Of a stretch of 64,000 bases of DNA, positions 17,628 to 21,508 are shown one piece after another. The position numbers were made by a program, and so were the translations under genes. The stretch spans positions 310,001 to 374,000 of the forward strand of contig NZ_SJKD01000003.1 of assembly GCF_004331485.1 (NCBI RefSeq). Reading direction: 5' to 3'. Origin of the DNA: Kribbella capetownensis (GTDB taxonomy: Bacteria; Actinomycetota; Actinomycetes; Propionibacteriales; Kribbellaceae). Each line of letters begins with the position of its first letter. Within the stretch, counting starts at the first letter, position 1. Under the pieces are notes generated by a model. The model was not told the DNA's origin. It did no database searches and saw nothing but the letters and a program-made list of their open reading frames with translations.

Positions 17628-18377
17628 TCAGAAGCTTTTCATCAGGGTGTTGTTCATGTAGACGAGCTCGCGGACCCGGCGCTTGTAGACGCTGAGTTCC
17701 AGGGCCGCGTCGGTGGCGGTGATCTTGCCGGACTGGTCGGCGTACGCCGTGACGAAGCCGCGGAACGGGAGGAACTTGCCGGCGGCGGCCGCGACGAGCG
17801 CGTTGAACGTCACCGCGTAGCAGGCCTTGATCGCCGGGTTGGTCGTCTTGCAGGCCACCGTCTTGCCGATCCGGACGTCCTTGAACCCGTCCGACTCGAC
17901 GTCGACCAGGTGCTCGGCGAACCCCTTGGCGTCGTACTGCGTGGTCTGGCGGACCCAGTAGTAGCCGTCGATCCGGCCGCGCGCCCCGGGCTGCTGCAGG
18001 ATGTAGTTCGTCCCGCCGTTGGACTTGTCCCAGTCCGGCAGCCACCCCTTGACCGGGGTGAACCAGAGCCCGCCACCGATCTCGACGCCGGTGTCGTACC
18101 GGCCCTTGGTGACGGCCGCCTTGGTCGGCGACGGCGTCGGCGGCGTGTACAGCGTGCCGGTCGGGTCCGGCGTCTGCTCGGCGACCGGCTGCTCCTTGTC
18201 GCCACCGGTCACCAGTACGACGACCCCGACGGCGATCAGCGCGATGGCGACGATCGTGCCGCCCATGATGATCCACCGGGATCGCATCGACCCCGACGAC
18301 TGCCGTTGCGGCCGGCCCGGCCCACGTCCCCAACCGCCCGGCGCGGAGTTCGGGGGCGGCCCGTACTGCTGACTCAT
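17628..18377 (-). CDS. Single-pass membrane protein, Pro-rich N-tail and extracytoplasmic domain (249 aa)
   Basis: The layout is a 30-residue Pro/Gly/Gln-rich cytosolic tail ([17 protein letters not shown]), basic residues (MRSRW) and one TM helix (about 36-57). A Pro/Thr linker follows (TPPTPSPT), then a folded domain of about 160 residues that should lie outside the cytoplasm. That domain has [19 protein letters not shown] and a two-Cys pair ([16 protein letters not shown]). The two upstream genes share the plan and the WVRQ region, so they are paralogues. I recognise no named family. It is the last gene of the operon headed by the zinc-ribbon membrane protein, 34 bases after its neighbour. 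Confidence 0.75.
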
Positions 18378-18411
18378 AACTCTTCCTCGCGGTCTGTCTG
18401 GGATGTCGTCG

Positions 18412-19197
18412 TCACAGGCTGTCGAGCACCGACTGCTTCATGGTCGCGGCGTCGGCCTCGGCTTGCGGCGCGAAGTCGATCCGGGTCCGGAAGTCCAGCG
18501 CGGTGACCACCTGGTCCTTGCGCCGGTACGCCTCGACGTACCCCTGGACCTTGACCTGCAGTCCGGTCTTGTCCTTCGTGGTGGAGGTGTAGCTGATCGC
18601 GACGCACTCCTCCAGGACGTCCTTCGGGCAGGTCAGGTTCCGTACGTTGCCGAGTTGGGCGATCTCGTTCTGGGTCTCGCCCTCGACGATCCCGAGCACG
18701 TACGCCTTCGCGGTCACGTTCTGCTTCTGCCGGACCCAGAAGAACGCGCGGGCGTCGCCGCTGGCCGCGTAGGAGACGAACTCCCTGCCCTGCGTCTCCT
18801 TCTCCAGCAGGCTCCAGCCCGCCGCCGGTACGACGGCGACGCCGGACCCGACCAGGACAGCGTTCGGCGGCGGCGTGTACGTCGACGTCGGCGTACTCGC
18901 GGTCGCCGTCGGGGACGGCGGTGGAGCCGGGTCGGCCTTGTCGTCCCCGCCGGACAGCAGGTAGAGCCCGACCGCGACCGCCACGACCACGATCAGGCCG
19001 GCACCGGCCGGGATCAGGTACGTCGGGATCCGCGGACCCTGAGTCGGGCCTGCGGACCGGGTCGGTCGCGACCGACCCGGCATTCGCCGCGACGGTGGCG
19101 GCTCCGGCGTACCCGGAGCCGCACCGTCGTCCGGCGCTGGGTTCCTCACCCAAGGGTTCGACCTGCCGGTCCCACCCTCGGCGCGCTTGCGGATCAC
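18412..19197 (-). CDS. Single-pass membrane protein, paralogue (261 aa)
   Basis: The plan matches the flanking genes: an Arg/Pro-rich cytosolic tail of about 60 residues, one TM helix (about 62-82, [20 protein letters not shown]), a Pro/Thr linker, then an extracytoplasmic domain. The domain contains [30 protein letters not shown] and two Cys ([13 protein letters not shown]) placed as in the downstream paralogue, which suggests a conserved disulphide. The GTG start overlaps the stop of the upstream gene (GTGA), so the two are translationally coupled. Function is unknown; I infer a sensor or envelope-binding role from topology only. Confidence 0.75.
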
Positions 19198-20294
19198 TGG
19201 CTCTTGAGCACCGACTTCAGCATCTCGTTCGAGTCCTTGTTGATGGCATCGAACTTCGTCTTCAGCCCGTACACCCGCACCAGCGTGATCACGCCGTCGT
19301 TGCGCTCGACCACACCGACGAACCCGACCACCGGCTCGCTGCCGTTCTGGCTGGACGAGGTGGCGGAGAAGCTCTGCGTGGTGAGGATCTTCACCGGGGT
19401 CTTGTCGTCCGGCCCCGGCTTGGTCACCTTCGGCTCGTTCTTCTTCACCGCGGACAGGTCCCCGGTCTCGGCGCCGATCAGCTTCGGCAGGATGGTGTCG
19501 GTGTTCTCACCCTCCTTGCCCTTGAAGGCCTCCACCATGAAGTAGGCCTCCTTGGCCTTCAGCAGGTAGACACCGTCGAAGTCCTTCAACTCCTTGCGGA
19601 CGTAGCCGGGCTGCGGCTTCACGAAGACGCCCTCGGCGACCTCGATGCCCTCGTCGACGTTCTCGGTCGGCTCGGTGCTCTGCCCGTTGGTCGGCTGCGG
19701 GGTCGGCTCGGCCTGCTTGTCGTCACCACGACCGAAGATCAGCGCCAGCACGACACCGATCACCGCGACGACGACGATCGCACCGCCGGCCAGGAACAGG
19801 ATCTTGTTCCCGCCCTTGCTGCGCGGAGTCTGACCGCCGTACTGGCCCCACTGCTGCTGCTGGCCGGGGTACTGCTGTTGCTGACCCGGGTAGCCCTGCT
19901 GCTGGCCTTGGTACTGCTGCTGGCCCTGGTACGGCGCCTGCTGCTGACCGGGGTAGGGCTGCTGACCCTGACCCTGGTACTGCGGTTGACCCGGCTGACC
20001 GTAGCCCGGCGGCGGAGCCTGCGGCGGCCGTCCGGGCTGCTGCCCGTAACCAGGCTGCCCCTGTGGCTGCTGACCAGGCTGTTGATTGGGCTGACCGTAC
20101 CCAGGCTGGCCCTGTGGTGGCTGCCCCGGCCGCTGGCCGTAGCCAGGCTGCCCTTGCGGCGGCTGCCCAGGCTGTTGACCGGGCTGACCGTAGCCAGGCT
20201 GACCCTGCTGACCCTGCTGACCCGGCTGGCCGCCGTACGGGGGCTGCTGCCCGGGGTGGCCACCCTGACCGTAGGGCGGTGGCTGGTTGCTCAT
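19194..20294 (-). CDS. Single-pass membrane protein with Gln/Pro/Gly/Tyr-rich repeat tail (366 aa)
   Basis: Residues 1 to about 155 are almost only Gln, Pro, Gly and Tyr, arranged as loose repeats of GQPGYGQP and QQYPGQQ. One TM helix follows (about 166-188, [24 protein letters not shown]), then an acidic/Thr linker and an extracytoplasmic domain of about 150 residues ([27 protein letters not shown]). It lacks the Cys pair of its two paralogues. The ATG at 20294 overlaps the stop of the zinc-ribbon gene; the open frame to 20405 is not needed. Such tails occur in actinobacterial membrane proteins and can drive clustering, but that role is inference here. Confidence 0.78.
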
Positions 20295-21508
20295 GCCTGC
20301 GTCTCCCCAGTCGTCGCGTCGTATCCACCAGCCCCGCCGCCTGCCACGGCCTGTGCTGCCACACCGCGGGCGGACTTCGGTACGGATCGCACCGAGTTGC
20401 CGCACGCGGAGCAGAAGTCGGAATGCGGGAGCAGCGGCATCTCACAGCGCGAGCAGAACGCCAGGTCGCCCGACGCGTGGTTGGAGCCGCCGCGGGCGGC
20501 CGACTCCAGCGCCGCCTCCAGCAGACCCTTGTGCAGGACCGTGCGGACCCGGATGATCAGCGCGCCGAGCAGCAGCAGGCCCCAGACCACACCGAGGATC
20601 GCGCCGACGGTCGAACCGTGGCCGCCGACGAACCCGAGCAGGTAGACCCCGCCCTGGAACAGCGCGTTGATCACGATCGCCTGGATCACACCGAACACCC
20701 AGCGAGGGGTGAAGCCGTCGTACCCTTCGCCCAGGCCGGAGAACTCCGCACCGGCCAGGCCGGTCGCCGAGCCGTAGATCAGCGGCTTGATGAAGCCGTG
20801 CAGCAGGACGATCGAGATCCAGGTGCCTGCGCTGCTGCCCGGACCGGCGAAGCCGCCGCTGATCCAGCCCCAGTGCAGCACCAGCGTCTCGAAGCACGCG
20901 TAGCCGACACCGGCCACGACGCCGAACGTGAAGCCGTCCATCAGGTCGTCGTACCGCGGCCGCGAGGCCAGGTAGAGCGGGCCGATCTGGCGGATCAGCT
21001 CCGACACCACCGGCACCAGCAGGAGCAGGATCAGCAGATCCCGCCCGGCCGGACCGGCGTCGTTGCCGCCGATCGTGTCCAGGCTCAGCGCGATCTTGTC
21101 CGACCAGATCCAGGTGAACACCGCGGCCAGTACTCCGGTGAGCACGAAGGCCGCGGCGACGACCGGGATCGGCTCGTCCTCCCAGAGGTTCACGTCGTAC
21201 AGATAAAGGATGTAGACGATCGGGATCGAGAACGCCGCCACCATGATCGCCACCGGCAGCGCGCCGAGCGCGGCGGTGAGAACGGTCAGCAGCAGCGCGA
21301 CACCGAGCGCCACCTTGTAGGTATAGGGCTGCTTGCCCGAGCCCTGCGGCATGATCGTCGAAACCAGCCGGAACGACGCCACTGGCTCATCGGGCCTGGC
21401 GGCGTACGCCTTCTTCCGCTCGGCATCCCCGGAGCGCAGATCATTGCCACAGTGGTGGCAGAAATGCGACACCTCGGGGACGTCTGAGTTACAGCGCGGA
21501 CAGACCAC
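20291..21508 (-). CDS. PrsW-like multi-pass membrane protein with zinc ribbons at both ends (405 aa)
   Basis: An N-terminal zinc ribbon (C3, C6, C17, C20) and a C-terminal one (about C352, C355, C366, C369) bracket eight to ten hydrophobic segments. The core resembles the PrsW intramembrane protease family in its order: VVSELIRQ, then a polar loop, [22 protein letters not shown], and a later [12 protein letters not shown]. The usual tandem Glu of the first motif is Ser-Glu here, so protease activity is doubtful. The GTG at 21508 has a GGAGGATGGC site. It heads an operon with three single-pass proteins. I infer a membrane platform or regulated protease for them. Confidence 0.75.

Follow-up and report, generated by a model that had tools for sequence, protein, structure and literature searches.

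The window analysed here, 64,000 nucleotides of Kribbella capetownensis (assembly GCF_004331485.1, contig NZ_SJKD01000003.1, positions 310,001 to 374,000), carries on its minus strand a set of four genes between coaE (22256-21639) and uvrB (approximately 17566-15463): one for a PrsW-like multi-pass membrane protein, followed by three for single-pass proteins, here called partners A, B and C. Their products are 96-99% identical to those of K. pittospori, the nearest named relative. The genes and their overlaps are as follows.

20291-21508, minus strand: PrsW-like membrane protein of 405 amino acids (aa), with eight predicted transmembrane (TM) helices and zinc ribbons at both ends (translation, PF13367 and zinc-ribbon matches, AlphaFold2 (AF2) model; non-catalytic by motif)
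20291-20294, minus strand: ATGA overlap of the prsW-like stop with the start of partner A
19194-20294, minus strand: partner A, 366 aa, with a Q/P/G-rich cytosolic tail of about 150 aa, a TM helix at about 165-187, a linker and an ectodomain (translation)
19194-19197, minus strand: GTGA overlap of the stop of A with the start of B (4 base pairs (bp), as in 18 of 18 Kribbella loci)
18412-19197, minus strand: partner B, 261 aa (translation, BLASTP homology)
17628-18377, minus strand: partner C, 249 aa (translation, BLASTP homology)

An earlier note, made from the letters of the window, had proposed that the four genes are made as one unit, and this was borne out: the prsW/A and A/B junctions overlap by 4 bp, in contrast to B and C, which lie 34 bp apart. 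The set is a genuine operon and not a chance arrangement, because the order of the three partner genes is kept in other Kribbella loci and a two-gene core is kept across Propionibacteriales. Of 15 further Kribbella loci, 14 have the same succession of a PrsW-like gene and three single-pass genes, and the fifteenth is truncated by the end of its contig. Outside the genus the loci mostly read rpsA-coaE-prsW-partner-uvrB, with one partner; the four-gene order, which the note would have counted as support if present in many genomes, recurs within Kribbella and gives way elsewhere to a pair. The unit of interest, as judged from these comparisons, is the prsW-partner pair, the four-gene form being a Kribbella expansion. 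A clear PrsW-like relative was found in 78 of the 294 sampled genomes of the order (Propionibacteriales) and in 60 of the 197 genomes of family f2 (probably Nocardioidaceae). With all loci pooled, the overlap between prsW and partner is exactly 4 bp at 74 of 77 junctions, start codons having been assigned by a plain rule with a slight preference for genes that touch; the three remaining junctions may reflect wrong starts. In five loci (L051, L063, L064, L065 and L068) the pair has been relocated from the rpsA-coaE-uvrB setting, yet it is still a pair, and the pair extends to further families of the phylum, where L160 shows the 4-bp overlap once more. When 58 genomes were searched with an ectodomain profile, all 33 with a PrsW-like gene had a match, each adjoining that gene, and none of the 25 without it did. 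Partners scattered away from the PrsW-like gene, which the note held would speak against the association, were thus not seen in the order; in the class, where 8 of 247 genomes matched, there is one exception (G566, taken up below). One genome (G152, locus L061) has two PrsW-like genes flanking coaE with an ectodomain match near each, i.e., a duplicated pair.

Natural fusions of the two proteins occur in separate lineages, Propionibacteriaceae among them, and argue for a physical partnership, of which such fusions are the usual sign. In G028 (L067) the PrsW core, zinc ribbon, TM helix, linker and ectodomain stand in a single frame of 684 aa; G321 has two PrsW-ectodomain fusions in tandem (61% identical to that of G028) and a separate unfused copy. 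A distant genome, G557 (L109) of the probably mycobacterial genus g43, carries a fusion of its own that lacks zinc ribbons and is matched by both the PrsW-like and the ectodomain profiles. The neighbouring genes in this genus resemble the serS-pheA region of mycobacteria. A more distant PrsW-like gene is found in 45 of 98 g43 genomes, with as many as five copies; at the loci read its neighbour is a single-pass gene whose ectodomain is of a different type, and in G548 (L110) it is fused to that type. The mycobacterial-type partner (L107, 4870-5613) was considered as a member of the same ectodomain family and rejected, showing no detectable homology to the ectodomains of the window by profile comparison. 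The plasmid collection held no match for the mycobacterial-type protein.

The PrsW-like protein matches PF13367 (PrsW) with 33.9 bits (cut-off 23.5), and a Pfam zinc ribbon matches above cut-off over two stretches, C3-C20 and C352-C369, as the earlier note had read from the letters. By the family match alone the protein would be labelled a PrsW-family intramembrane metalloprotease, almost certainly a wrong annotation. The predicted active-site residues of PrsW comprise an EExxK motif in TM3, a histidine in TM5 and an HxxxD motif in TM6 (PMC4602095). The corresponding positions and the two ribbons are listed below.

21431-21508, minus strand: N-terminal zinc ribbon (C3, C6, C17, C20), predicted cytosolic; the four cysteines are invariant in 50 diverse relatives
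20990-21004, minus strand: S169-E-L-I-R173, a degenerate EExxK of PrsW (first Glu in 0 of 64 of the family, 25 of 25 canonical)
20774-20776, minus strand: Tyr245 at the position of the canonical TM5 active-site His (His in 0 of 64 of the family, 25 of 25 canonical)
20654-20668, minus strand: N281-A-L-F-Q285 at the position of the canonical TM6 HxxxN/D (first-position His in 0 of 64; profile-profile alignment)
20399-20455, minus strand: C-terminal zinc ribbon (C352, C355, C366, C369; zinc-ribbon match and comparison of relatives)

We compared 64 distinct family members with 25 ordinary PrsW proteins of the same order, that of the window's own genome included (L081). Both glutamates and the lysine of EExxK, the TM5 histidine and the TM6 histidine are kept in 25/25 of the ordinary proteins. 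In 64/64 family members the first glutamate is replaced by S, G or A, the TM5 histidine by Y, M, I, L or F and the TM6 histidine by N, V, L or S; the lysine is mostly arginine, and the second glutamate is retained in 60. Family and canonical PrsW are linked by profile-profile comparison (probability 90%), in which the EExxK and TM6 motifs are paired; the TM5 column is gapped there by a few residues, and the TM5 comparison rests on a MAFFT alignment. Since the three residues are missing from all 64 proteins yet kept in all canonical ones, the PrsW-like protein is almost certainly a pseudoprotease and not an active protease, although, to judge by sequence alone, some residual activity is conceivable. 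That it is an active PrsW-type intramembrane protease cutting its three neighbours as clients, as the earlier note had suggested, is very improbable: the PF13367 match above cut-off, the adjacency of the genes and the retained second glutamate would suit such an enzyme, but the two histidines and the first glutamate are gone from every member examined, and the G028 fusion has lost the second glutamate as well. The histidine of an LHGF motif in the window protein was considered as a substitute catalytic residue and discarded, being present in only 26/64 members (E, Q, L or A in the rest). In addition to the dead form, the window's genome encodes an ordinary PrsW with intact motifs (G000:C21:197402-197998).

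The three partners share one plan, as had been proposed: an N-terminal tail of low complexity is followed by a single TM helix, and a Pro/Thr linker leads from there to a C-terminal domain of about 150 aa. Net charge is greater on the N-terminal than on the C-terminal side of the helix in 113/113 partner relatives, which argues that the N-terminus lies inside and the C-terminal domain outside. Their kinship, likewise proposed, is confirmed by BLASTP, strongly between B and C (1e-11), both of which contain the WVRQ core described in the note, and weakly between A and B (6e-4), as well as by profiles of A, B and C, which detect one another (the profile of B matches C at 1.2e-8, that of C matches B at 3.3e-20). 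A profile built from non-Kribbella partners alone matches A and B of the window at 2.8e-13 and 2.7e-5. The ectodomains lie as follows.

19197-19670, minus strand: PsbP/LpqN-like ectodomain of A (non-Kribbella partner profile, 2.8e-13)
18415-18885, minus strand: PsbP/LpqN-like ectodomain of B, the one modelled (AF2, predicted local distance difference test (pLDDT) 95.0, predicted template modelling score (pTM) 0.90; LpqN Z 12.1)
17631-18104, minus strand: PsbP/LpqN-like ectodomain of C (homology to B by profiles)

In a tree of 102 ectodomains the topology was O | (A,(B,C)), where O denotes the single partners; each group fell on one branch, with B and C as sisters, although branches were long and support for the A group was modest (90/59). 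The Kribbella lineage thus appears to have expanded a single ancestral partner to three before its sampled species diverged. The model of the B ectodomain, built from 89 relatives, was matched by Foldseek to PsbP, Mog1, LpqN, MTC28 and Apa (E 1e-5 to 1e-3), and VIA-align gave tied Z scores for LpqN (12.1; 3.2 Å over 133 aligned residues), MTC28 (12.0) and cyanobacterial PsbP (11.9). The partner ectodomains are one family, predicted on this model to have the PsbP/Mog1/LpqN fold. None of the three partners matched a family of Pfam, NCBIfam, PHROGs or PADLOC above the curated cut-off, weak matches falling largely on the TM, linker and low-complexity parts, and no hydrolase family was matched in the family library searches; the domains did not, then, fall into well-described unrelated families, an outcome that the earlier note had allowed for. 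In mycobacteria LpqN works with MmpL3 in lipid handling, and the likeness of the ectodomain to it raises the possibility that the module handles lipids or glycolipids at the envelope. LpqN heads the structural matches, if tied with others, and is known to interact with MmpL3 and MmpL11 from work using a trehalose monomycolate (TMM) mimic (PMC7458404). We consider such a role rather unlikely, as proteins with the PsbP fold do many different things, LpqN is level in score with MTC28, PsbP and Apa, and no sequence relation was found: the ectodomain had no sequence match to LpqN in the PDB, and it stands outside the LpqN lipoprotein family, with no Pfam match and anchored, in place of a lipid, by a TM helix that a cytosolic tail precedes.

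The AF2 model of the PrsW-like protein (pLDDT 74.3, pTM 0.77) consists of eight long helices. In the second-look aligner its best matches were APH-1 of gamma-secretase (Z 14.8, 13.8 and 13.6; the best superposition covers 214 residues at 4.8 Å) and chain 6 of 7tm3, a multipass translocon entry (Z 13.3), which we take to be TMEM147. The next unrelated structure followed at Z 8.7, and SagB-SpdC (6u0o) and Rce1 (4cad) gave Z 6.4 and 5.1. Helical bundles may, as the aligner warns, reach a Z of about 13 through their common arrangement alone; a chance match to APH-1 is nevertheless unlikely, because a relation between PrsW and APH-1 is already known (PMC6588880). The model therefore indicates that the PrsW-like protein shares the TM-core fold of the CPBP-PrsW-APH-1 superfamily (RCE1/APH-1-like).

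Taken together, the module is probably a constitutive membrane complex of a non-catalytic PrsW-family scaffold with one or more single-pass subunits. The suggestion of the earlier note that the four proteins form one complex is consistent with the genetic linkage and the natural fusions. The physical complex, the docking of TM helices, the way the scaffold lies in the membrane and its role as a non-enzymatic adaptor are inferred. The scaffold would cross the membrane eight times and keep both zinc ribbons in the cytosol, and each partner would have its disordered tail in the cytosol, cross once and carry its PsbP/Mog1/LpqN-fold domain outside on the Pro/Thr linker. That the scaffold may hold the partner helix without cutting it and display the PsbP-fold domains is suggested by relatives of its fold, since TMEM147 (with nicalin), like APH-1 (with nicastrin), is a scaffold for a single-pass partner and SpdC scaffolds SagB. 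Several points weigh against this reading. Both structure models, of the PrsW-like protein and of the B ectodomain, are of monomers; the former is of moderate confidence (pLDDT 74), and its match to APH-1 stands out solely in the second-look aligner, Foldseek having found nothing at E ≤ 0.001. Unusual residual activity is conceivable given the second glutamate kept in most of the family. The solitary gene of G566 (L158, 8753-9355) encodes a TM helix and an ectodomain of the partner family, with neither a PrsW-like neighbour nor a long low-complexity tail, and the coaE/uvrB setting in Kribbella says nothing about function.

The cellular role is weakly indicated to be that of a non-enzymatic envelope adaptor, which would contact cytosolic factors with its zinc ribbons and tails and connect them to ligands or enzymes outside the cytoplasm; a sensor, lipid handling and a protease adaptor are close rivals. 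An envelope-stress sensor, its ectodomains monitoring the wall or outer surface and its zinc ribbons and tails signalling to a cytosolic factor, would suit the N-in/C-out topology, the cytosolic low-complexity tails and the two ribbons, and divergence within Kribbella is faster in the ectodomains than in the scaffold (mean identity 59% for the ectodomain of A versus 89%), as ligand-binding parts can show. It is a possible explanation but not a probable one: no sensor kinase, sigma or anti-sigma factor or response regulator was recognised beside the module, most neighbours lying outside the family-library searches. The module might instead position or restrain a separate protease, for unrelated peptidases stand beside it outside Kribbella (C11 upstream of the fusions, M4 divergent from the pair, S8 or pro-kumamolisin upstream in mycobacterial-type operons); the absence of such a neighbour in Kribbella, and of any recognised one in the coaE-uvrB loci, makes this doubtful. 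Broader still, and equally tentative, is the thought that the envelope adaptor is a widespread actinobacterial machine resembling a minimal APH-1/nicastrin or TMEM147/nicalin, with a dead PrsW scaffold and exchangeable single-pass subunits coupled by lineage to S8, M4 or C11 peptidases; such a machine could act generally as an adaptor in the processing of extracytoplasmic proteins or the assembly of the envelope, and could offer a bacterial parallel to the way in which dead PrsW-fold proteins turned into scaffolds.

Among described systems, the PrsW proteases (e.g., PrsW of B. subtilis) share the PF13367 match, eight TM helices and alignable motifs with the protein described here, which differs from them in its lost active site and its fixed single-pass partner. 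The folds closest to our model (Z 13.3-14.8) are those of APH-1 and, on our reading of chain 6 of 7tm3, TMEM147. Both are scaffolds of this superfamily, APH-1 for nicastrin and TMEM147 for nicalin, partners that cross the membrane once and carry a large ectodomain (PMC6588880, PMC7505659); TMEM147 has been modelled on APH1-nicastrin, with the TM helix of nicalin packed on its TM1 (PMC7505659). APH-1 carries a QExxR motif and two TM histidines (PMC6588880). The motif resembles the mostly [SGA]ExxR of the PrsW-like family, but the histidines at the PrsW positions are absent in the family, so the combination of QExxR and histidines is not found there, and both APH-1 and TMEM147 are eukaryotic. 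The ectodomains of nicastrin and nicalin have folds unrelated to that of the partners, and neither system is known to have zinc ribbons. In Staphylococcus aureus, SpdC is a CAAX-protease homologue that scaffolds the membrane-associated, extracytoplasmic SagB (PMC10581084). It is likewise a bacterial scaffold with an extracytoplasmic partner; SagB, however, is a glucosaminidase, whereas the partners here have a PsbP-fold domain of no recognisable enzyme family. LpqN, MTC28, PsbP and Mog1 share the ectodomain fold (Z 11-12) but not the TM anchor or the genetic tie to a PrsW-like gene, and neither Pfam nor PDB sequence searches linked the ectodomain to them. A listing of 2012 (PMC3482391) gave PrsW-zinc-ribbon fusions as probable peptidases in signalling; this mention aside, the open-access papers searched contained no description of the dead PrsW clade, the partner family or the pair, and none on PrsW together with pseudoprotease, in agreement with the earlier note, which knew of no system of this composition. 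Relative to that literature, the dead clade and the pair, read as a non-catalytic PrsW-superfamily scaffold with single-pass subunits, appear to be new. The dead clade, conserved and tied to a fixed partner, offers a bacterial case for the protease-to-scaffold step thought to have yielded APH-1, the partner family, which has no Pfam model, receives its first fold assignment here, and the pair, with its natural fusions defined, is amenable to expression and structure solution.

Several neighbours of the pair were recorded outside Kribbella. The fusions of two Propionibacteriaceae-like genomes have a C11 clostripain-family gene immediately upstream (L067, 3033-5117; L113, 3810-5759), and in family f3 (Propionibacteriaceae) an M4 thermolysin-family gene stands divergently beside the pair (L064, 6330-9419; L065, 1520-4477; L068, 3706-6543; L114, 6866-9772), a gene of like size and position being present in L160. 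In genus g43 and family f17 (L104-L108, L110 and L115) a gene matching S8 subtilase, pro-kumamolisin or both lies upstream of the PrsW-like gene, often overlapping it, and in several of these loci the PrsW-like gene in turn overlaps a single-pass gene. A patatin gene was found near the pair in L104, and in L109 (6217-14372) the genes for a patatin, a SLOG (LSDAT_prok) protein, the PrsW-ectodomain fusion and an nSTAND1-WD40 protein stand in a row that looks like a conflict or defence island.

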